64,000 bases of DNA from Akkermansia muciniphila (GTDB lineage: Bacteria; Verrucomicrobiota; Verrucomicrobiia; Verrucomicrobiales; V1-33). Both the position numbers and the translations under genes were made by a program. Of the stretch, positions 305 through 13,263 are shown piece by piece. The stretch is from NCBI GenBank assembly GCA_943333275.1, contig CALQSQ010000011.1:1-64000 (forward strand). The letters are read 5' to 3'. Below the pieces are notes generated by a model. That model saw only the letters and a list, made by a program, of their open reading frames with translations, did not search any database and was not told where the DNA came from. Numbering within the stretch: position 1 is the first letter of the stretch; the number at the start of each line of letters is the position of its first letter.

Positions 305-3300
305 ATGTTTATTTCCAAGCTAATTCGTTTAAGACCCAGGGGGTTCACACTAATCGAAATCCTTATCACTGTTGGGGTCATCGCCATCCTGGCTGGAGCG
401 GCCTTTTTTGCGCTGCAGTCCAACATCAACACCGTTTCGCAGAAAGCGAAACTGCCCCAGGACGTGGCCACCATGAACCGCGCAGTGGAAACGTATCTGG
501 CCTCGGGGGGATCGCTCGACGGGGTGACCTCTCCGGCGGCAGTTCTGGCTAAGCTCAAGACCCAGGCGGTGGACCGGCAACAAATCGCCGCCGCCAACGG
601 CTCGATGATCGATCTTCGAATTAACATCCAGACTGCAACAGGATCGGCCGAGGAAGTGGCCATCTGGGATGCCCAACAGAAAGTGTTCCGGATTGTCAAA
701 AGCACTGCCGTCCCCAGCGGGACGACCGCCATTTCTGAATTTAAGGTCGATCCCAACGCCAGCTTCGAAATCGCGACGGAGAACCGCCAGAACAATTATC
801 ACCTGGCTGCGGAAAGCAATTGGATCTGGGATTATGAAGACCAGTATGGCGGAGAGGTCAGCCGCACCCTGATCCGCCCGAGCACCACCAAGTCCACCAA
901 CCGCCAGGCCCCCGCAACCGTCGCGGCGGCGCGCCTCCTGCCACCCACCTTTTCCCTGACTCCTGGGACCTATGCGCTATCCCGCTTTCCGGCGTCCGTG
1001 CAGCTTGCCAACCCCAATGCGGGCGGCACGTCCACCCTTTGGTTTTCGCAAAATTCCGCCGAATGGGCCATGTACGACTCTGCGATGTCAGTGCTTCCAG
1101 GTGCCGGTATTCAGGCGTATGCAGCCACTCTGAATGATGAATTATTCTCGGACAGCCAGACCGCGTCGGCGCTCTACGAGGCAAGCAAGGTGACCATTCA
1201 GGTCGGCGACAACGTGAAATCCTCCTTCCGCTACGGCGAACTGGGCGGACCACTGGCCCCCGGCTCCATCACCCCGGCTCCACTGACTCCGGGCAAACTC
1301 CTGCTGATGAATGGAGCCGAATTCCCGGATTACTGGGAGAACCATGACACGTTTCAGTTTTTCTGGACCCTCGACGGTGGAGATCCCAAACTCAACGGGG
1401 CGGGCCGTCGGACCGGCAATGATACGTTCGTAACCAACTATCCCGGGGATGAGGTGGCGGTCGCGCTGTCGGATTTCTCGACCTCCCCCTCCATCAATCT
1501 GCAATATTATGCGCTGGCCAAAAATCCCAATGTGGCCATCAGCAGCAATGTCACGCCGAAGTTGATCAGCCGTTCGGCCACCCCTCTGCTCCCGCCCCTG
1601 ATCACTCCCGGAACCGGCAGTCTCGACGGGACGGACCCGGTGGCCATGGTTCTGGACCTCACCGGTGGACAAACGCCCGCAGGGGCGCGGATTTTTTATC
1701 GCTCGGATGGTGTCGATCCCGGGGCGGGTCAGGATCCAAACCCCGGAGCCGTCGAATACACTGGCACCTTCCTGCCCGCTCCAAATATTGGTCCGGTGGC
1801 GGCGATTGGAGCCCGGGTCTATCCACCCGTTGGCTACAAGGACTGGTTCGTCACCAGTCCCGTGGCGGTACGGACGTATTTCCTGCCTTACGCTGACAAG
1901 AACATCTATGCTGTCACCGGAACCGATACGAGCACCTACGTCGTGGATCCCAACTCCGGCACCACCCAGCTCATCAACAGCACGGCTCCCTTCAACATGC
2001 GCACCATGGCCCTGGATGCAAAAAACGCCGCCCTCTACTACACGGAAGCCGCCGGCAGTGGCTGGCGTTTGGGACGGTACAATATCATCAGCCAGACGCA
2101 TGCGATTCTCGGAAGCCTGAGCACCGGCCGGACCTACAATGCCACCCAACAACCGGAAAACCTGACCTTCTACAACAACAACCTCTACTACATCGCACGC
2201 CAGTCGGACGACCTCATCAAAATCTCCCTCTCCACCGCGGCGGTGCCCGCGATCACCACCGTCAGCAAACTGGCCGACATTACCACCAACACCACGAGCT
2301 TTGCAACCGTTGGTGACATGGCCGTGGACGATAATGGCTGGATGTTTTTTGACGATGACGTCAAGCGCCACTACCGCTTCAGCCTGATCACGCTTAGCGG
2401 ATACAAACGCATTGGCGATACCGAGCGTGTCAATGATGCCCTGGCAATTTACCAGGGACTCCTCTATGCCGGGGATGTGGGCACCGATGATATCCGGCGC
2501 ATTTCGCCAGCCATCGGCACCACCCTTTCGAAAGTCACCACCGCCCCGGTGAAGCGTTTCGCCGATTTCGGTTCCCCCACTTCCTCCAGTGCCACTCCGG
2601 CCAGTTCGTCCCTGTGGATGATTGTGGATCACTCGGATGGCCCGCATCTGCATCAACTCCGCAATTACCGCAGTCCGGTGATCGCTGCGGATGTGGACTT
2701 TGGCGTGCTCAATTATCTCAGCGGAACCACCGTCACCAGCATGAATGCCGTGGGACAGGGCTACATCAAGGCCATGTGCATCACCTCGGCCGGGATGATG
2801 TATTTCTGCCGGAATTTCAAGACCACCATCAGTGGGACGGACTACTACCGCCCGATCATGAAGCTGGACATCAGCAATCTCTCACCCGGCGACACTCTGG
2901 CTGCCACCTTTGTGGGTGACCTCAAAACCAGCCTGACCACCATTGCCGGCACGATCGATCCGGATGATGTCGTGACGGGCATCACCATCTCACCTGCCGG
3001 CCAGCTCTATGGCGTCCTGCGGGAGGGATTAAATTCGGGGGCAGGCGGGGAGGATTATCTCTTCCGCGTCACGCAGACCGTCGCCAGCATGGCGGGTCCA
3101 AATCTCCCCACCGTCCTGGTTGGCAGGTTGACCTCCCCCGTCGGTTCCTCCACCCAGTCCGAAGACCTCACCTTCGGGCCGGACGGCCGCCTCTACGTCA
3201 GTGACATTTCGGACGACACCATTTACACGGTCGATTCCACAACCGGTTCCATCCTCACCTCCTTCGGCACGCAGACGAATGGAAACTATCTTGCCCTGGC

Positions 3301-5614
3301 TGTCGATCCACTCGACTACCGGCTGATCGGCAGCAGCTCCAGTGCCAGCTCACCAGCCAATTCACTGATGAAAGTGGATGGAAGCAGTGGAAACGACGAC
3401 CAGTTGATCGATATGGCCTCGCTTTTCGGCTTCAGCAACGTCGAAGCCATGGCCTTCTTCCAGGGGACTTTCGTCCTCTCCCAGGGCGAACCGGATCTGT
3501 ATGCGGTGGACGGGACGGAAACCATTTACGGCGTGGACATCGACACCGGGGCCACCAGCCTCGTGACCGACGCGCCCTTCCGCCTCCGCGCCCTGGCCTA
3601 TGATTTCGTGAACCAGCGTCTTTTTTATCTGCGGAACAGTGCAGGCTCCATGACGATCGGCAGCTACAGCCTCATCACCAACACCCATACGACCCAGGGC
3701 ACCCTCCAAGATTGGTGGCACGGTTACACACCCACCGAACTGCCGGATAACCTGTGCTACTTCGGTGGATTCCTCTGGTATGTGCCACCACGCTCGGATG
3801 ATCTGGTGAAAATTCAGCTCGACTCCACCGGCGCGGTGGTCAACCAGACCAAGGCCGCCGAGCTGACCGCCAACAACTTGAAATTTGACCTCATTGGCGA
3901 CCTGGCCGTGGCACCGGATGGATGGATGTATTTCACCGCCACCAATTTTGAAGGCCAGCGGTTCTGCCGCTTCCGGCTCCCGGCGCTGGCAAATTTTGAA
4001 GTCCTCTCCGGTCCCTCGTTCCCGAATACCTCCGTTCCAGCATCCGATTTCACCGAGTTGTGGTTCGACGCCCTGGCCTTCCGAACCGTGGACGGCGCAG
4101 GCAACCGGCCACTCTACGGCACCTTCTCCGCTGCCTCGGCACCACTGCGCACCGTTTCAACGACGAACGGCAGCAGCACGTTGTACAAGCCTCTCAATCC
4201 ATCCCTCCAGGTGATCGATTTCTCCGACTACCATCCCGGCTCCATGGGTTCGACTTCCTGGATCAGCACTCCCGTTATCGCCATCAACAATCTGCGCACC
4301 GGCTACACCTATGCGAACGTGGGTGGCCCATTCCTCCCCGGCACGACCGCAGCTCCCGCCGTTTCCGCACCACCGAACATTGTCCTCGTAAACTCCAACC
4401 AGATTCCCCTGACCCAACAGAACAGCAGTACCTTCTCCATCCAGTGGACGTATGATGGATCCAATCCCCTGACGTCCACAGCCGCCATCCTCGGGACCAC
4501 CTTCACCAACGGGATGCCGTCAATGCCCGTAGCGGTCGATTTCGCCAAATGGGGCACCCGCACCACGCTGCCGCTCAGCGCCGCCGCCAAATCCAACAAT
4601 GCTCTGATCATGACCGACTCTCCCCGGGTATCGGTGAGCGCCCCCATCATCAAGACCCAGCTGCGCGATGCCGTCTTCACCCTGGTGACCACCGGCTTCG
4701 GAATGCGCACGCTGGAAATATCCGGCGATATCAATGCCGGCGACTGCCCGCCCGGCACCAGGATTTACTATACCACCGACGGAACCGACCCCGGACTGAC
4801 CACCGACGTTTCCGGAATGGAAGTCCCCTCATCAGCCTCGGCCCTGCTGTACACCGGAGCCATTACGCCTCCCAACACCGGAACCGTTGATTATGTCGTG
4901 ACCGCCCGCGTCTACCCCCCCCCGACCCTCGGTTCCTGGTTTAGCACCAGCATCAGTGATTACATCGCCGTTCCCGTCGGGATCGCTGGTGGTCACATGG
5001 ATCTGGACACCTCCCACCTGCTCTACGCGTTCCGCAAAGGCACCACCGACGGCCACGTTCACGAGTATGACAAGGTTTACAACGTCGTGGGTTCCTCCTT
5101 CTTCGGCTTCCTGGATTCGAAACTTAAAAACATCCCGACCTACGTCGCCAACAACGTTAAATTCAAAATCATCGTCGCCAACGCCAACCTGTCCCCCGGC
5201 GGCCGGCTTGTGATCAACAAGAATTACAACTCCTCCGATCCGACCACTTGGATTCCCGTCACCACCTATGACGAGATCGCCCTCTCAGCCCTGCCCATCT
5301 ACAGCCTCAATGGGATTGCCGGAACCACGCAGCTTACGAAACTCGGCATTTACTTTGACACCAACGTCATCGCCGCTGGCGGCCTTATCCCCACGGTAAC
5401 CAGTAATGTTAGAAACAACACGCCTGGGTTGCTAGGCGAATGGCGCAATGGCGCTCTGACCGTTCAACTCGTCCTGGTCAATTCCAACGGCACCAATGGC
5501 TTCACCACCAACCTTGGCTACAGTAACGGCGGCGTCCAGGGCGTCGCCACCAGCGGACTGCTTTGGGAATCCACCGTCTTCTACCACTGGAGTGGAGCCG
5601 CATATGGCCAGTAA
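305..5614 (+). CDS. Giant surface protein with type IV prepilin N-terminus, chitobiase-like and propeller repeats
   Basis: This 1769-residue protein opens with a basic leader and the prepilin motif RGFTLIEILITVGVIAIL (Gly13, Phe14, Glu18), so a prepilin peptidase should cut after Gly13 and the hydrophobic helix should anchor or assemble it. The rest is far larger than a pilin. FFWTLDGGDP lies near residue 350 and TYDGSNP near 1380. Modules like the chitobiase/hexosaminidase C-terminal domain occur near 460 (RIFYRSDGVDPG) and 1484 (RIYYTTDGTDPG). Two related propeller-like blocks cover about 533-695 and 1073-1230. The last 207 residues (from about 1563) form a separate domain with HVHEYD. The start is fixed by the leader and by CAAGGGG at 295-301. 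No partner pilus genes are adjacent. Export by a type II/IV pilus-like machine is inference. Confidence 0.85.
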   Translation: MFISKLIRLRPRGFTLIEILITVGVIAILAGAAFFALQSNINTVSQKAKLPQDVATMNRAVETYLASGGSLDGVTSPAAVLAKLKTQAVDRQQIAAANGSMIDLRINIQTATGSAEEVAIWDAQQKVFRIVKSTAVPSGTTAISEFKVDPNASFEIATENRQNNYHLAAESNWIWDYEDQYGGEVSRTLIRPSTTKSTNRQAPATVAAARLLPPTFSLTPGTYALSRFPASVQLANPNAGGTSTLWFSQNSAEWAMYDSAMSVLPGAGIQAYAATLNDELFSDSQTASALYEASKVTIQVGDNVKSSFRYGELGGPLAPGSITPAPLTPGKLLLMNGAEFPDYWENHDTFQFFWTLDGGDPKLNGAGRRTGNDTFVTNYPGDEVAVALSDFSTSPSINLQYYALAKNPNVAISSNVTPKLISRSATPLLPPLITPGTGSLDGTDPVAMVLDLTGGQTPAGARIFYRSDGVDPGAGQDPNPGAVEYTGTFLPAPNIGPVAAIGARVYPPVGYKDWFVTSPVAVRTYFLPYADKNIYAVTGTDTSTYVVDPNSGTTQLINSTAPFNMRTMALDAKNAALYYTEAAGSGWRLGRYNIISQTHAILGSLSTGRTYNATQQPENLTFYNNNLYYIARQSDDLIKISLSTAAVPAITTVSKLADITTNTTSFATVGDMAVDDNGWMFFDDDVKRHYRFSLITLSGYKRIGDTERVNDALAIYQGLLYAGDVGTDDIRRISPAIGTTLSKVTTAPVKRFADFGSPTSSSATPASSSLWMIVDHSDGPHLHQLRNYRSPVIAADVDFGVLNYLSGTTVTSMNAVGQGYIKAMCITSAGMMYFCRNFKTTISGTDYYRPIMKLDISNLSPGDTLAATFVGDLKTSLTTIAGTIDPDDVVTGITISPAGQLYGVLREGLNSGAGGEDYLFRVTQTVASMAGPNLPTVLVGRLTSPVGSSTQSEDLTFGPDGRLYVSDISDDTIYTVDSTTGSILTSFGTQTNGNYLALAVDPLDYRLIGSSSSASSPANSLMKVDGSSGNDDQLIDMASLFGFSNVEAMAFFQGTFVLSQGEPDLYAVDGTETIYGVDIDTGATSLVTDAPFRLRALAYDFVNQRLFYLRNSAGSMTIGSYSLITNTHTTQGTLQDWWHGYTPTELPDNLCYFGGFLWYVPPRSDDLVKIQLDSTGAVVNQTKAAELTANNLKFDLIGDLAVAPDGWMYFTATNFEGQRFCRFRLPALANFEVLSGPSFPNTSVPASDFTELWFDALAFRTVDGAGNRPLYGTFSAASAPLRTVSTTNGSSTLYKPLNPSLQVIDFSDYHPGSMGSTSWISTPVIAINNLRTGYTYANVGGPFLPGTTAAPAVSAPPNIVLVNSNQIPLTQQNSSTFSIQWTYDGSNPLTSTAAILGTTFTNGMPSMPVAVDFAKWGTRTTLPLSAAAKSNNALIMTDSPRVSVSAPIIKTQLRDAVFTLVTTGFGMRTLEISGDINAGDCPPGTRIYYTTDGTDPGLTTDVSGMEVPSSASALLYTGAITPPNTGTVDYVVTARVYPPPTLGSWFSTSISDYIAVPVGIAGGHMDLDTSHLLYAFRKGTTDGHVHEYDKVYNVVGSSFFGFLDSKLKNIPTYVANNVKFKIIVANANLSPGGRLVINKNYNSSDPTTWIPVTTYDEIALSALPIYSLNGIAGTTQLTKLGIYFDTNVIAAGGLIPTVTSNVRNNTPGLLGEWRNGALTVQLVLVNSNGTNGFTTNLGYSNGGVQGVATSGLLWESTVFYHWSGAAYGQ

Positions 5615-6473: not shown

Positions 6474-6680
6474 ATGAGCAAAATCAGCATCCTTGAGAAA
6501 TTCGCCCAAGACGCCATTAACGCACCAGCCCTGGTGACCGGCGGTAAAAAATGCGGCGGCAGCAAGAAGAAGAGTCATAAGTCCAAGAGCCACAAATCAG
6601 GTGGCGGCAGCAAGGCCAAGAGCCGTAAATCCGGCGGCAGCAAAGGCAGTTGCTACGTGCCCCCTCCATGCAAGTACTAA
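6474..6680 (+). CDS. Double-glycine-leader secreted peptide with Ser-Lys/Ser-Arg repeats
   Basis: The 68-residue product has a 24-residue leader (ISILEKFAQDAINAPALVTGG at its end) finishing in Gly23-Gly24, the cleavage site used by C39 peptidases. The 44-residue remainder is very basic and serine-rich. It holds three Gly-Gly-Ser-Lys-type units separated by Ser-His-Lys and Ser-Arg-Lys repeats, and Cys27, Cys60 and Cys66 near its ends, finishing CYVPPPCKY. The frame is open upstream from a GTG at 6408, but ATG 6474 gives a normal leader length. A C39 exporter operon starts 246 bases downstream, behind a terminator. It is probably a bacteriocin-like or signalling peptide. The repeats resemble eukaryotic RS domains, and the kinase at the end of the following operon resembles SR-protein kinases. 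Activity and modification are unknown. Confidence 0.8.
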   Translation: MSKISILEKFAQDAINAPALVTGGKKCGGSKKKSHKSKSHKSGGGSKAKSRKSGGSKGSCYVPPPCKY

Positions 6681-6708
6681 GCTCCAGGCTTACTGCTTAG
6701 CTAAGACG

Positions 6709-6746
6709 ACAGGGAAGAGGGGAAACCTCTTCCCTGTTTTGTTGTT
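6709..6746 (+). terminator. Intrinsic terminator after the peptide gene
   Basis: The 12-base arms ACAGGGAAGAGG and CCTCTTCCCTGT pair perfectly around GGAAA and are followed by TTTGTTGTT. The hairpin begins 28 bases after the peptide stop codon. It should separate a short, possibly abundant, peptide transcript from the export operon, either fully or by partial read-through. Confidence 0.8.
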
Positions 6747-6925
6747 CAGGACCGCAAAGTTTGTCATGAACTCCGATGGCGCGTTCAGGGGGCGGTCTAG
6801 AAGGCCATGAGTTCAGGGAATTCACAAATTTTATTCTCATTTATGCTATTTTTGCAATTTATGCGATTTTTCCTTTACGGAATGGGATTTATGGTTTTTA
6901 CTATCAACCTAATTCCTTAAGATCC

Positions 6926-8461
6926 ATGAATTTCCAGAATCTCATCCGTTGGAGCGTTTTTTTCATCCTCCCCATTCTCCTCGGCAGTTGTGCGCTCACT
7001 GAGGAAAAGCTTCAGGCAGTGAGGAAACCTTCCAACAGTAACGAAATTCGCAGGGCCAGGATTGTGGGTGAGCCTGGGGAAACCGGACCGAAATTACCGG
7101 GAAGCGGGGGGCAGATCACAGTTGATGAATGTGTAGAATTTGCGCTGGAGAAAAATTTCTCGATCCGGCTCGCGAAAGCGGCGGAGAAGGCGGCGGTGGC
7201 GGATTTGACGCGGGCCAAAGCTGCGTTTGATCCGACGATTGGTGGCTCCGTGGTTACCAGTGACGCGGGGCAGGGGTGGAGTGGGGCAACCGGCAGCGGG
7301 GGGATTTCCAAGAAATTCGTCACAGGCACTGAGGTCAGGATGGAAGCGGGGGATGTCTATGGCAACAGCGGCGATTTCCGGGATGATTATTTAACGGGAC
7401 AGGCAACCTCGGATCTGACGGTGAGCGTCCGGCAGCCGCTGCTGCGCGGGGCGAACTGGGGGGTGAACCGCTCGGGAATCAAATTGGCGGAATTGCTGAA
7501 GGAGCAGGCCACGGCATCAAAGACTGCAGAGGTGTTGGATATGCTGCGGGCGGCGGAAACTGCCTATTGGACGGCAGCGGTGGCGCGGGAGGTGCTGGAG
7601 CGCCAAAAGACCAGCCTGCAACGCGCGGAGAAATTGCATGCCGATGTCAAGGCCCGTCTCGACGCAGGCGAGGCCTCGCAACTCGACGTACTGGAGGCGG
7701 ACGTCGCGCTGGCCGGAGCGCAGGAACGACTCGTGGCGGCCGAGCGCGCGGCGGCGGATCGGTTGGACGAAATGTGGTTTGTGCTGGGGGTGTCGGTGAA
7801 TCAGCGGCCTGAGAAAATAACCTTTCCAGCGATCGATGAAAAAGCGCTGCAAGCAGCCAAACCCAACGTGGCAGCCAGCACCACCAGTGCTCTGACGCAA
7901 TCCCCCGCCGCCGTGCTGCTGGTCAACGAAGTGCAGCGTCGCGAGATCGAACTGCGCAAGGCCCGCAACGGGCTGCTGCCGCAGGTCGATTTGGAATTCG
8001 ATGCCGATCACGTCAACAACCGCACTTCCAGCACGGGAAACAAATCCGGAGGATATGACGCGGTGGCCTTGATCCGTGTAAGCATGCCGCTGACTTTCCG
8101 GGCAGAGCGTGCGGACTTGGCGCGAGCCCAGGCGGAACTGGAGCGCAGCCAGGCCAGCCGGGAACAGGCGGAATTGCGGTTGCGCCAGCGTGTTGCGGAA
8201 TTGTGCCGCGCCTTGCTTTCAGGCAGCGAGACGCTGCGCGTGGCGAAACTGTCGCTCGCGGCGCGTCAGAAGAAAATTGAGGAGGAAGTCCGCCGTCATG
8301 CGGAAGGATTGCTTTCCACCCACGATTTGCGGATTGCCCAGGAGGAACTGGATGGAGCGGAACTCAATGAACTGCAGGCCCGCCTCTCGCTGTTAGGCAA
8401 TCAGGCATCGCTCGGCCAGTTGGACGGCAATCTGGCCGGTCGTCACGGCATTTCCCTGTAG
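6926..8461 (+). CDS. TolC-family outer-membrane efflux lipoprotein
   Basis: The 511-residue product starts with a lipoprotein signal whose lipobox is LGSC (Cys about residue 22). It continues with the OEP pattern of TolC-like proteins: VDECVEFALEKNFSIRLAKA near the N-terminus, long Ala/Glu/Arg-rich helices, and a second repeat with LRKARNGLLPQVDLEF. It should form the outer-membrane channel of a type I secretion system with the next two products. The ATG at 6926 is preferred over an upstream in-frame ATG at 6776 because it gives a clean signal peptide. The upstream 100 bases are very A+T-rich and probably hold the operon promoter. The next gene starts 12 bases after its stop. Confidence 0.9.
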   Translation: MNFQNLIRWSVFFILPILLGSCALTEEKLQAVRKPSNSNEIRRARIVGEPGETGPKLPGSGGQITVDECVEFALEKNFSIRLAKAAEKAAVADLTRAKAAFDPTIGGSVVTSDAGQGWSGATGSGGISKKFVTGTEVRMEAGDVYGNSGDFRDDYLTGQATSDLTVSVRQPLLRGANWGVNRSGIKLAELLKEQATASKTAEVLDMLRAAETAYWTAAVAREVLERQKTSLQRAEKLHADVKARLDAGEASQLDVLEADVALAGAQERLVAAERAAADRLDEMWFVLGVSVNQRPEKITFPAIDEKALQAAKPNVAASTTSALTQSPAAVLLVNEVQRREIELRKARNGLLPQVDLEFDADHVNNRTSSTGNKSGGYDAVALIRVSMPLTFRAERADLARAQAELERSQASREQAELRLRQRVAELCRALLSGSETLRVAKLSLAARQKKIEEEVRRHAEGLLSTHDLRIAQEELDGAELNELQARLSLLGNQASLGQLDGNLAGRHGISL

Positions 8462-8473
8462 GTCATTGCAACC

Positions 8474-10699
8474 ATGGCAAAATTTTCCCATTACCCCCAG
8501 CTGGATGCGATGGACTGCGGTCCCGCGTGTCTGCGGATGATTTGCTCGCATTATGGACGCGAGTTCAACCGGGCCCGGTTGCGGGACTTGTGTTTGATCG
8601 GCAAGGCGGGAGTTTCGATGCTGGGAATTTCGGATGCGGCTGAGAAATTGGGCCTGCGCAGTCTGCCGGTGAAACTTTCCTTCGAACGGTTGGTGAAGGA
8701 GGCCCCGCTGCCCTGCATTGCACATTGGAACCAGGATCACTTTGTCGTCGTTTATAAGATCACAAAGCGGGCGGTGCATGTGGCGGACCCCGCCATGGGA
8801 CTAATGACCTATACCCATGCGGAATTCCTGCATGGCGTCAATGGCGGGGCTCCGGGCAATCCTGATACCCAGGGTCTCTTTCTCCTGCTGGAGCCCACGC
8901 CCGCCTTCCACGAAACGCCCGCCAACCCCGGCCAGGAGCGCGATGAGACACGCCGCGGCCTGCTCTTTTTCGTCTCCTACCTGCGGCCCTACAAGAAACT
9001 GATGTGGCAACTGCTCATCGCCATGGTCGTGGGATTGATCCTGGAACTGATCCTGCCTTTTGTCGCGCAGGCGGTGGTGGATCACGGGATTGGCAACCTG
9101 GATTTAAATTTCATTTACGTTCTGCTGGCTGCGCAGCTGGTGCTCTCGCTCAGCCAAATGGCCGGGGATATGGTGCGCAGTTGGATCCTGCTCCACATAG
9201 GATCGCGCATCAGCGTGTCCATGGTCTCCGATTTCCTGACCAAGCTCCTGCGACTGCCGCTGGAGTTCTTCGACACCCGCACCGCCGGCGATATCATGCA
9301 GCGGATCGGCGATCACCGGCGGGTGAAAAGTTTCCTCATGTCCTCGTCCCTCGATGTGGCGTTTTCCACCCTGACTTTTCTAGTCTTCGGCGTGGTCCTG
9401 GCCATTTACTCGTGGGTGATTGTGCTCGTTTTTGCGGTCATGACCATCCTCAGCGCGTGCTGGCTGGTGTTGTTTTTGAAGCAACGGCGCATCATCGATC
9501 AGAAGCGTTTCATGATCGATGCCAGGGAGCGGGACAACCTTTATGAACTGGTGTCCGCGATGCAGGAAATCAAAATCCAGGGCATCCAGCGGCCCAAGCG
9601 TGGCGAGTGGGAGGACATCAGCGTGCGGGGATACAAGCTGGAGGCCAAAACGCTGGCGCTGCGGCAAATGGAGCGCATCGGCTTGTTCTTCATCAATAAT
9701 CTGCGCAATATTTTCATCACCTTCATTTCCGCCCGGGCGGTGATTCAGGGGGAAATGACGCTGGGCATGATGCTCGCGGCCCAATACATCGCCGGCCAGT
9801 TGAACTCGCCCGTGGTCCGGTTGATTGAGTTTGTGCATTCCGGTCAGGAAGCCCGATTGAGCCTGGAGCGGATGCAGGAAATCTACAGCCAGCCGGAGGA
9901 GGCGGAGGCAACCCAGCAAAAGCCCTGTTCCTTCCCGGCCTCGCGTGTGCTGACTTTGCAGGGGGTGAGTTTCCGCTATGCCGGAGCCGGTCAGCAGAAT
10001 GTGCTGACAAATGTGAACCTGCAAATTCCGGAAGGCCGCGTCACCGCTATTGTCGGCAGCAGCGGGAGTGGCAAAACCACCCTGCTCAAGCTGCTGCTGG
10101 GAATGTATCAACCCACCAGCGGCAACATTTACGTGGGTCATGTTCCGCTGCAGACGTTCGATGCCCATGCGTGGCGTCGCCGGTGCGGTGTGGTGATGCA
10201 GGATGGACACATTTTCTCCGCCACACTGGCCCGCAACATCGCTCCCGGAAATGAGCCGATCGATCCGCTCCGCTTGCAGGCTGCGATTCAGCTCGCGAGC
10301 CTTGGCGACTATGTCAACGGCCTGCCGCTGGGCGTGGAAACCAAACTGGGTGACGACGGCCAGGGCTTGTCCGGCGGGCAACGGCAGCGGGTGCTCATTG
10401 CCAGGGCCTTCTATCGCAATCCAGAATATTTACTGCTCGACGAAGCCACCAGCGCGCTGGATTCCAACAACGAATTTGTCATCCAACACCACCTTCGCCA
10501 GTTCGCCCAGGGTCGCACGGTGGTGGTGATCGCGCACCGCCTGAGTACGGTGAAAAATGCGGATCAAATTGTCGTGCTCCATCAGGGACAAATTGTGGAA
10601 ATCGGCGACCACAGCTCGCTGGTACAGCATCGCGGCGCCTATTACCAACTGGTGCATAACCAACTGGAACTCGAAACCTCCCTCAGCCATGCCGCGTAG
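8474..10699 (+). CDS. C39 peptidase-containing ABC exporter
   Basis: The 741-residue protein has the three parts of a bacteriocin-type processing exporter. The N-terminal C39 cysteine peptidase (about 1-130) has DCGPAC with Cys15, HF with His89 and DPAMG with Asp105 as the expected catalytic triad. A six-helix membrane domain covers about 165-460. The ATPase domain (about 490-741) has GSSGSGKTT at 528-536, LSGGQRQR from 632 and a YLLLDEAT Walker B. Such proteins cut the leader after Gly-Gly and export the peptide. The peptide encoded just upstream carries exactly such a site. The HlyD-type gene overlaps its end by 11 bases. Confidence 0.95.
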   Translation: MAKFSHYPQLDAMDCGPACLRMICSHYGREFNRARLRDLCLIGKAGVSMLGISDAAEKLGLRSLPVKLSFERLVKEAPLPCIAHWNQDHFVVVYKITKRAVHVADPAMGLMTYTHAEFLHGVNGGAPGNPDTQGLFLLLEPTPAFHETPANPGQERDETRRGLLFFVSYLRPYKKLMWQLLIAMVVGLILELILPFVAQAVVDHGIGNLDLNFIYVLLAAQLVLSLSQMAGDMVRSWILLHIGSRISVSMVSDFLTKLLRLPLEFFDTRTAGDIMQRIGDHRRVKSFLMSSSLDVAFSTLTFLVFGVVLAIYSWVIVLVFAVMTILSACWLVLFLKQRRIIDQKRFMIDARERDNLYELVSAMQEIKIQGIQRPKRGEWEDISVRGYKLEAKTLALRQMERIGLFFINNLRNIFITFISARAVIQGEMTLGMMLAAQYIAGQLNSPVVRLIEFVHSGQEARLSLERMQEIYSQPEEAEATQQKPCSFPASRVLTLQGVSFRYAGAGQQNVLTNVNLQIPEGRVTAIVGSSGSGKTTLLKLLLGMYQPTSGNIYVGHVPLQTFDAHAWRRRCGVVMQDGHIFSATLARNIAPGNEPIDPLRLQAAIQLASLGDYVNGLPLGVETKLGDDGQGLSGGQRQRVLIARAFYRNPEYLLLDEATSALDSNNEFVIQHHLRQFAQGRTVVVIAHRLSTVKNADQIVVLHQGQIVEIGDHSSLVQHRGAYYQLVHNQLELETSLSHAA

Positions 10700-12026
10700 C
10701 CTGCCATCGTCACAGCTCCCTTTGTCCCTGCAGATGCCCGGTGCCCTGGGCATGAGCGATACCGTGCGCGAACTGATGGGTCGTCCGCCCCATTGGCTGT
10801 TGCGCTCCGGCGCCACCATTCTGGCTTCTGTCATTTTGCTGATCCTCACCCTGAGCGCCATCATCAGTTATCCTGACATGATCACCAGTCGCCTGACCGT
10901 GACCGGCAGTCACTCCGTGGTTGAAGTCATGGCCCGGCAGTCCGGTCATTTGCAGTCGGTGAAAGTGAGGGAAAAACAAATGGTGAAGCAGGGCGAGGTG
11001 CTGGCGGTCCTCGAAAACCCGTGCGATGCCGAGGCCTTCCTCAGCCTGAGAACCCAGCTCGACAAGGTTTCCGCCATGCTCGTAAGCGATTCTGCCTTTG
11101 TGAAGGAGAAGTTTCCCGCCGAACCCAAACTGGGAAAACTGCAGGATTCATTTTCCGATTTCCTGGCCTCCTACACCAGGTTGCTCGCCATCTGGAACGA
11201 TGATCACATCACCAAAACCGCCGGGCTGCTCACGGCCCAGTTGGAAAGCAAACTCAGCCAGGTCGAGAACATGAAAGGACAGCAGTCCCTCATGGACCAG
11301 GAACTCAAGCTGGCGCAGGAAAAATACGACCGGATGAAGGCGCTCTTCGCCCGCGGCACCATCAGTGCCGCCCAGTTGAAGGACCACGAAACGCTGCTCC
11401 TCAACCAATCCCGCGAACATTCCTCCGTGGAAAAAAACATGTTGGAGGAACAGATCCTCGCCAGCCGCCTGGACAAGGAAATCCGCGATTTAAAACATGA
11501 ACGCACCGAAGCCATGCAGCTCGCGCGGGACCGCTTCCGTGTTTCCTATCAAAAGCTGCGGGCGGAAATGGACATCTGGGAAAGCGACTACGTGCTGAAA
11601 GCCCCCTCCGACGGCATGGTGGCCTTCTACGATTTCTGGAATGAACAACAATATGTGACCGCCGGACGCCAGGTGTTTATCATCGTTCCGGAAACGTCCA
11701 GCCTGCGCGGGCGCGTGACCATCAGCCAGGGCGGCACGGGAAAGATCAAACCCGGGCAGCTGGTGCGGATTAAATTTGATGATTATCCCTCCAAGGATTT
11801 TGGCATCGTGACCGGCCGCGTGCAATCCGTTTCCCTCGTTGCGAGGGAGGGATCCAATCAGGTCCTGGTCGATCTCGACTACCCGCTCATTTCCAGTTAT
11901 CACAAACCCCTCCATTTTAAACAGGAAATGGCGGGAGAGGCCAGCATCGTCACCGAAAACACCTCCCTCCTCGGGCGCATCTTCTATGAAATCCGCAGAG
12001 CTTTCCATCAAGGTTCCGATTCCTAA
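10689..12026 (+). CDS. HlyD-family periplasmic adaptor of the peptide exporter
   Basis: This 445-residue membrane-fusion protein has one membrane helix (about 37-59). It then has a lipoyl-like half (HLQSVKVREKQMVKQGEVLA), a long charged coiled coil (about 150-285), the second lipoyl half (YVLKAPSDGMVAFYDF) and a C-terminal barrel region. It would bridge the ABC exporter and the TolC-like channel. The start at 10689 overlaps the exporter stop by 11 bases, so translation is probably coupled. Another in-frame ATG follows at 10734. The kinase gene overlaps its 3' end by 41 bases. Confidence 0.9.
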   Translation: MPRSLPSSQLPLSLQMPGALGMSDTVRELMGRPPHWLLRSGATILASVILLILTLSAIISYPDMITSRLTVTGSHSVVEVMARQSGHLQSVKVREKQMVKQGEVLAVLENPCDAEAFLSLRTQLDKVSAMLVSDSAFVKEKFPAEPKLGKLQDSFSDFLASYTRLLAIWNDDHITKTAGLLTAQLESKLSQVENMKGQQSLMDQELKLAQEKYDRMKALFARGTISAAQLKDHETLLLNQSREHSSVEKNMLEEQILASRLDKEIRDLKHERTEAMQLARDRFRVSYQKLRAEMDIWESDYVLKAPSDGMVAFYDFWNEQQYVTAGRQVFIIVPETSSLRGRVTISQGGTGKIKPGQLVRIKFDDYPSKDFGIVTGRVQSVSLVAREGSNQVLVDLDYPLISSYHKPLHFKQEMAGEASIVTENTSLLGRIFYEIRRAFHQGSDS

Positions 12027-13263
12027 AACAGCACCGCCCCAACGCGTGGCTTTAAAGATTCAGCGTCGCTGCTACGGACGCGATGCCCTCACAGAAATTG
12101 GCATCCACCATTACCTGCGTCGGGATCACGGTCCATCACCCGATCTCATCGGCTTCCATGAAGCATTTTTTCATGACGGACATGTCTGCACATCCTACGA
12201 ACTGCATGGGCGCTCGCTCGACACTTTTGTGGATCGTGGACCGCTGCCCCTGAACGAAGTGCGCGCCATCACCCGCCAGCTCCTCGGAGGACTCGTCCGC
12301 ATGCACGAATATGGATTCGCCCACACCGATGTGAAACCCCAGAACATCCTCTACCGCCGCACGCCCAAGCCCCGGGCGCGGCTCAGTGATTTGGGAAATG
12401 CCGATAACATTCTCCGCCGGGGATCCAACCGCTGCACCCGCGATTACACCCCGCCGGAAGTGTTGTTAGGCAATCCGCTGGACCTGCGCCTCGACCTCTG
12501 GTCCCTTGCCTGCACCGTGTTCGAACTCGCCACCGGCCATGTCTTATTCGATCCTTACCAAGCCACCGGTCGCAAATACAAGGAGTTCAATCAGAAACTT
12601 CCCGAAACCGCCTACGATCCCTCCGTGGCCGCCGATGCCGCCGCAGAAGCCGCAGAACAATATCGCGCCGGCCACATTCTCAGTGGCAAATATCGCCTCG
12701 AATCCAAACTGGGCTCGGGAAAATTTGCCACCGTCTGGCGCGCCGCCGTTCTCAATTCAAATCCACTCGATGGCACCTATGACACCTTGTCCGCCAACTG
12801 TAAGGAAATCGAGGACGCGATCCCCAGCGACAACACTTCCACCGAAGACCCCGCCCGGTCCTGGCGCAAAGCCCGCGGGGCGCAGGACCTCCACGACCTC
12901 GTCCTCAACTACGAACACCTCGTCCTCATGCAGGAACTGCTCGGCCCCCCACCGCGCGAATGGGCCGCTTCCGGCAACTACGCCTCCGCCTATTGCACTC
13001 CTGACGGTCACTTCAAACACGACCCGGCACCAGCAAATCCAGTCACCCTGGAAACCCTCCTCCGCCACAGAAAACTCCGTGCCACCGACGCCAGAGAGCT
13101 GGCCGCATTTCTCATGCCCATGCTCACATGGAAACCAGCGGACCGCCCCATCGCCACCGCCTGCCTGGATCACCCATGGCTGCACACGCCGCTCAGGATA
13201 TCTCCTTTTCTCACGCGTCACCTCCCGCCTCATCGATCTCAAAAATCTGCCATACTCGCATAA
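11986..13263 (+). CDS. SR-protein-kinase-like protein kinase with displaced glycine-rich loop
   Basis: The 425-residue product has CMGC/SRPK-like kinase motifs in an abnormal order. First come VALK (Lys24), a helix-C Glu (Glu37), the catalytic loop HTDVKPQN (113-120), DLGN in place of DFG (135-138), TRDYTPPEVLLG and DLWSLACTVFELATG. Only then comes KLGSGKFATVWRA (glycine-rich loop, 243-251), normally N-terminal. It is followed by ELLGPPPREW, GHFKH and FLMPML...LDHPWL, all close to SRPK landmarks. The start at 11986 overlaps the HlyD-type gene by 41 bases, leaving no room for a normal N-lobe. Proposed role: phosphorylating the Ser-rich peptide, an exporter part or an immunity target. It could be an active permuted kinase, a pseudokinase or the result of misassembly. 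Confidence 0.75.
   Translation: MKSAELSIKVPIPKTAPPQRVALKIQRRCYGRDALTEIGIHHYLRRDHGPSPDLIGFHEAFFHDGHVCTSYELHGRSLDTFVDRGPLPLNEVRAITRQLLGGLVRMHEYGFAHTDVKPQNILYRRTPKPRARLSDLGNADNILRRGSNRCTRDYTPPEVLLGNPLDLRLDLWSLACTVFELATGHVLFDPYQATGRKYKEFNQKLPETAYDPSVAADAAAEAAEQYRAGHILSGKYRLESKLGSGKFATVWRAAVLNSNPLDGTYDTLSANCKEIEDAIPSDNTSTEDPARSWRKARGAQDLHDLVLNYEHLVLMQELLGPPPREWAASGNYASAYCTPDGHFKHDPAPANPVTLETLLRHRKLRATDARELAAFLMPMLTWKPADRPIATACLDHPWLHTPLRISPFLTRHLPPHRSQKSAILA

Follow-up and report, generated by a model that had tools for sequence, protein, structure and literature searches.

An SRPK-type kinase with a relocated glycine loop in a bacterial C39 export locus for a Ser-basic peptide: a candidate route to phosphorylated secreted peptides

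Introduction

In the case of class III and IV lanthipeptides, the serines of the precursor are phosphorylated by the kinase of the synthetase (LanKC or LanL). The SR-protein kinases (SRPKs) phosphorylate Ser residues in Arg-Ser repeats, Arg-Ser being preferred. Two other groups of kinase-modified ribosomal peptides, the paeninodin-type lasso peptides (PMC9266682) and the linear polyphosphorylated peptides or LPPs (PMC13381572), make use of HprK-like kinases. Diatoms secrete silaffins, Ser-Lys-rich peptides whose serines are phosphorylated, and the silaffin kinase tpSTK1 prefers basic substrates (PMC4557024).

The present analysis deals with a stretch of 64,000 nucleotides of Akkermansia muciniphila DNA (the window), located at the start of contig 11 within a genome of 5.8 Mb. 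Judged from its sequence, the locus described here looks like an undescribed route to phosphorylated secreted peptides.

Organization of the locus

The region 6474-13263 was predicted to contain a double-glycine-leader peptide followed by TolC, C39-ABC, HlyD and kinase genes, and all these parts were recovered in that order. The features of the locus and of its upstream neighbour are the following:

305..5614, +, large prepilin-like protein with N-methylation motif; its C-terminal domain family neighbours four of the six kinase loci
6474..6680, +, precursor peptide of 68 aa; leader MSKISILEKFAQDAINAPALVTGG, core KKCGGSKKKSHKSKSHKSGGGSKAKSRKSGGSKGSCYVPPPCKY
6708..6738, +, strong terminator-like hairpin of the intrinsic type; 13 pairs, T-rich tail
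6926..8461, +, TolC-like outer membrane factor (OEP 2.8e-45)
8474..10699, +, C39 peptidase-ABC exporter (Peptidase_C39 3e-33, ABC_tran 7e-32)
10689..12026, +, HlyD-type membrane fusion protein; 11 nt shared with the ABC gene
11986..13263, +, SRPK-like protein kinase of 425 aa with relocated glycine loop; 41 nt shared with the HlyD gene
12046..12069, +, strand 3 of the kinase, VALKIQRR; ATP lysine K24
12589..12669, +, linker 1, in the helix F-G loop; precedes the relocated glycine loop
12670..12744, +, relocated strand1-glycine loop-strand2, GHILSGKYRLESKLGSGKFATVWRA

The last three genes of the locus overlap. The reported overlap of the kinase with the last exporter gene amounts to 41 nt when counted from ATG 11986, which is probably the genuine start, the listed TTG at 11839 giving an overlong ORF. 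The leader ends in Gly-Gly and is adjacent to a C39-ABC exporter gene with its HlyD partner, as in double-glycine-leader peptides secreted by C39 exporters. The terminator-like hairpin sits between the peptide gene and the exporter genes, right after the former, and probably lets the level of peptide mRNA surpass that of exporter mRNA. The C39-ABC exporter of the window is 57-67% identical to the exporters at three other kinase loci.

The kinase is related to SRPKs

Pfam assigns the window kinase to Pkinase, with a match starting only at profile position 43, and the PADLOC and NCBIfam profiles gave generic kinase matches, with no defence or lanthipeptide membership. A profile of the kinase family compared with the PDB scored Sky1 at 200 bits (E 5e-58), SRPK2 at 195, SRPK1 at 189 and CLK2 at 154 (5e-44), Sky1 and SRPK1/2 being well ahead of CLK, DYRK, PRP4 and HIPK. 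AlphaFold2 models were built from four-row alignments of the window and related-locus sequences, with pTM values of 0.58 for the window kinase and 0.73 for that of G176, a relative at the end of its contig. In Foldseek, the top 22 matches of the first model and the top 23 of the second were all SRPK1, SRPK2 or Sky1. The SR-protein-kinase-like character proposed in the original prediction is thus borne out by sequence and by fold, SRPKs being the nearest kinases of solved structure in both respects. Its four landmarks, HTDVKPQN, DLGN, ELLGPPPREW and LDHPWL, are all present and align with SRPK1.

All catalytic residues are kept in the six kinases of this family (ATP lysine, helix C glutamate, catalytic Asp, Lys and Asn, DLG Asp and APE Glu), and G243/G245, V250, W251, K24, E37, D115, K117, N120 and D135 are invariant. 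The last third, carrying the SRPK docking region, reaches 57 bits to Sky1 with the family profile, and this SRPK-type C-lobe part found no match in the ordinary kinase frames of the collected loci. D564 is a docking residue of SRPK1 (PMC11211491), and its position is occupied by Glu in all six kinases. At the other docking positions, E571 is Glu in three of the six, D548 is acidic in two and K615 corresponds to a His of the window kinase; only D564, among these four, corresponds to an acid throughout. The large spacer typical of SRPKs is missing, the catalytic loop lying about 22 residues ahead of DLG, and the insert is found in the helix F-G loop.

The glycine loop is located in the C-lobe

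The fold of the window kinase starts at strand 3, and strands 1 and 2 are not found upstream of it. In six of six kinases, the N-terminus lacks the strand1-glycine loop-strand2 hairpin, which is found beyond DLG and helix F, within the F-G loop, so that the canonical SRPK order with an N-terminal glycine loop is not observed. In phmmer comparisons, the segment AGHILSGKYRLESKLGSGKFATVWRA, which corresponds to this hairpin, maps on SRPK1 residues ahead of all others; in the window protein, the catalytic loop, DLG and helix F all precede it. In the alignment of the family profile, Sky1 20-44 is matched by segment 234-258, and the N-terminal part, starting at 18, corresponds to Sky1 residues 46 onwards, which places the cut at the turn joining strands 2 and 3. 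About 36 other bacterial kinases match the same profile segment before strand 3 and then the catalytic part, that is, in the ordinary order. When the segment was put back in its normal position, the score rose from 106.5 to 116.3 bits for SRPK1 and from 65.8 to 74.4 bits for CLK2. The rearranged order is common to six assemblies, the relatives being 35-41% identical to the window kinase.

The linkers on the two sides of the relocated hairpin measure 24-42 and 44-69 residues, and the net charge of the first is -3 in the window kinase and between -11 and -17 in its five relatives. The modelled hairpin has a pLDDT of about 70-83, a value indicative of strand formation only. To complete the N-lobe, the hairpin would have to reach back, either in cis or in a dimer. 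As regards the kinase, the motifs of the original prediction stand; the absence of an N-terminal glycine loop and its placement in the C-lobe had escaped it.

The Ser-basic peptides

The core of the window peptide is mainly composed of Ser, Lys, Arg, His and Gly, with 10 Ser, 16 Lys/Arg/His, 3 Cys and neither Asp nor Glu. The peptide family, leader included, was found again in other genomes at 41-57% identity. The copies at kinase loci are the following:

G028, L051:11656-11862, Ser-basic peptide
G050, L053:6138-6305, Ser-basic peptide
G084, L055:15150-15344, Ser-basic peptide
G168, L164:3558-3719, Ser-basic peptide

In six of six SK/SR peptides, Ser is adjacent to Lys, Arg or His above the level of the shuffled own core (p <0.0002 to 0.014), and the same shuffle test revealed no such excess in three control double-glycine peptides. 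The recurrence of the peptide with its leader and a Ser-basic adjacency beyond that of shuffles indicate that the pattern is more than chance, in agreement with the Ser-Lys/Ser-Arg/Ser-His repeats initially described. The cores are mostly Lys-Ser, not Arg-Ser. Peptide-profile matches better than 1e-15 occur only in kinase genomes, a restriction that is partly circular because the profile was made from these same peptides.

G050 also carries a second, orphan double-glycine peptide (L149:1333-1641, minus strand) with a TGGGCKSYCPPPPC core which is Pro- and Cys-rich and not Ser-basic. No exporter gene was found nearby in the stretch read, and this peptide is probably exported in trans.

Distribution of the locus

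Among 387 genomes of the order, six contain a full-length relative of the kinase; they belong to three families and have a single copy each, and 388 genomes sampled from the phylum yielded no further one. All six kinases lie in the exporter locus described here; five are accompanied by a Ser-basic peptide and the sixth (G176) is at a contig end within HlyD. The expected co-occurrence of leader peptide, exporter and SRPK-like kinase is therefore supported by a kinase that is always within the exporter locus, and widespread kinase homologues devoid of peptide or exporter were not seen among the 387 genomes. In a scan of 84,980 species, the G176, G050 and G084 loci, all from Verrucomicrobia, were among the matches listed, the others listed being generic kinases. 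Viral contigs contained no kinase relative, and plasmids and phages gave only generic kinase matches, each covering less than half of the query.

The order peptide-TolC-ABC-HlyD-kinase, with the kinase overlapping HlyD, is shared by the window, G028 and G084, and the order in G050 is kinase-peptide-ABC-HlyD. In G168, L164 carries the peptide and TolC genes together with the greater part of the ABC gene, and L054 carries the end of the ABC gene and the kinase, both contigs breaking within the ABC gene.

Close relatives of the exporter occur in 8 of 240 genomes, and the exporter clade is present in 5 of the 6 kinase genomes versus these 8/240 overall (hypergeometric 5e-8). Within the exporter clade alone, the association between peptide and kinase is weak (Fisher 0.11). 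Two related C39 exporters are adjacent to peptides of another kind, a Tyr/Gly/Ser-rich double-glycine peptide in G031 (L163:7732-8043) and a peptide without Ser-basic repeats in G023 (L162:4229-4414), and no kinase of the window type was found in these two genomes. G054 possesses an SR/SK-rich peptide and an exporter. No kinase was detected in this genome, in which the contig ends at the peptide, and the kinase gene may possibly be on a missing contig.

In the congener G024, glyS, the gene downstream of the locus, is kept, the cluster that lies beside it is absent and there is no kinase; the cluster is thus an accessory unit. A shared insertion site is not supported, glyS and the cluster of G028 being on different contigs.

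The prepilin-like neighbour

Copies of the prepilin-like protein were found in the window (305-5614), in G000:C109:503-1648, in L051, in L052 (two copies) and in L053, and its conserved C-terminal domain ends with SNGGVQGVATSGLLWE..FWHW. The protein occurs in 16 of 240 genomes of the order and is adjacent to four of the six kinase loci (co-occurrence p 2e-4). In the other loci read, its genes are away from exporters, and it is absent from G084, which has the complete kinase-peptide-exporter set. For these reasons, it was rejected as an obligate part of the locus; it is a possible partner.

Discussion

The reading that we favour, with a probability of about two in three, is a multiple phosphorylation of the peptide core by the kinase prior to leader cleavage and export. 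The precursor is translated with its double-glycine leader, and the SRPK-like kinase of the same operon would bind the basic core and phosphorylate many of its serines, by analogy with SRPKs and Arg-Ser repeats. The acidic linker ahead of the relocated glycine loop may help to hold the basic peptide. According to the functions of their families, the C39 domain would then cut after Gly-Gly and the ABC-HlyD-TolC channel would export the core. The exported phosphopeptide would be zwitterionic and contain cysteine; perhaps it acts in a silaffin-like manner, in a matrix, in adhesion or in mineral binding, or else it is an antimicrobial silenced by phosphate. The Lys-Ser nature of the cores, the single docking residue fully kept, the G054 locus without kinase, the weak peptide-kinase association within the exporter clade, the example of PIM-1L, bound by SRPK1 through its SR/SH-rich domain but left unphosphorylated (PMC11809128), and the small number of six genomes were counted against phosphorylation.

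The kinase could instead have the exporter, the prepilin-like neighbour or some other cell protein as its target and so regulate secretion, the core being a plain cationic secreted peptide. Such a target would fit with a kinase gene that overlaps HlyD and, in the window, stands at a long distance from that of the peptide, and with the frequent vicinity of the prepilin-like protein (4/6, p 2e-4). However, related exporters with other peptides have no kinase, the kinase is of the type acting on SR repeats and G084 has the full set in the absence of the prepilin-like protein, which makes this explanation rather unlikely. We give still less credit to a chaperone or immunity factor that would dock the peptide without phosphorylating it, the relocated loop resulting in a poor or dead enzyme. 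SRPK1 is indeed bound and inactivated by the SR/SH-rich domain of PIM-1L, which stays unphosphorylated (PMC11809128), but glycine-loop and catalytic residues invariant in six diverged kinases are unexpected for a pseudokinase.

That the displaced loop could result from an error of assembly or reading frame, or that the resemblance of the internal segment could be fortuitous, is hardly credible, as nothing except the oddity itself was found in favour of this idea, whereas the same order is present in six diverged assemblies, the SRPK1 score increases after un-permutation and ordinary kinases match the segment immediately ahead of strand 3. Starting from phosphorylation of the core, a broader proposal can be formulated, for which we consider the chances to be evenly balanced: a new class of exported bacterial peptides that receive several phosphates from an SRPK-type kinase whose descent is eukaryote-like. 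The natural transplantation of the glycine loop into its C-lobe would have left this kinase functional, and the basic substrate would possibly close or activate it via the acidic linker.

In the literature searched, whose coverage left most subscription papers outside, there was no precedent for permuted kinases or for SRPKs with RiPPs, and no description of an SRPK-type kinase with a C39 exporter and a Ser-basic peptide or of the rearranged kinase. Kinase-modified exported peptides are already known; the rearranged kinase architecture is possibly new. If the kinase acts on the peptide, a simple bacterial operon would employ, for building a phosphopeptide destined for secretion, a logic of SR-repeat phosphorylation that is known elsewhere from splicing control in eukaryotes. 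With its displaced glycine loop, the kinase would show, as a natural experiment, to what extent the fold of an active protein kinase tolerates rewiring, and one kinase and one short peptide suffice for testing both points.

Compared with the SRPKs (Sky1, SRPK1, SRPK2), the window-type kinase shares DLGN, the TR-Y activation segment, the SRPK-type C-lobe, a W after the glycine-loop Val and an acidic residue at the D564 position. It differs from them by being bacterial and within an export operon, by the absence of the long spacer between catalytic loop and DLG and by the presence of strand1-glycine loop-strand2 in the helix F-G loop. The window kinase weakly matches the LanL kinase, and it has a Pkinase domain only, with no lyase or cyclase domain and no cyclase gene at the locus. 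In the LPPs and the paeninodin-type peptides, a kinase encoded in the cluster of the peptide itself phosphorylates Ser of a ribosomal product (PMC13381572, PMC9266682), as would be the case here. Their systems comprise HprK-like kinases, RREs, other peptidases and phosphates on one Ser, whereas the present locus combines a kinase of the Pkinase/SRPK type, a C39 exporter and a repeated Ser-basic core, and no RRE or SpI peptidase was seen there. With silaffins and tpSTK1, which are eukaryotic and belong to the secretory pathway, and whose peptides are polyamine-modified, only the composition is shared. The RaxST-RaxABC system, according to its model (PMC4216712), similarly has one modifying enzyme whose operon also encodes a type I exporter of the C39 type, serving a peptide made with a leader; the enzyme is there a sulfotransferase responsible for tyrosine sulfation, in contrast to the Ser phosphorylation proposed here.
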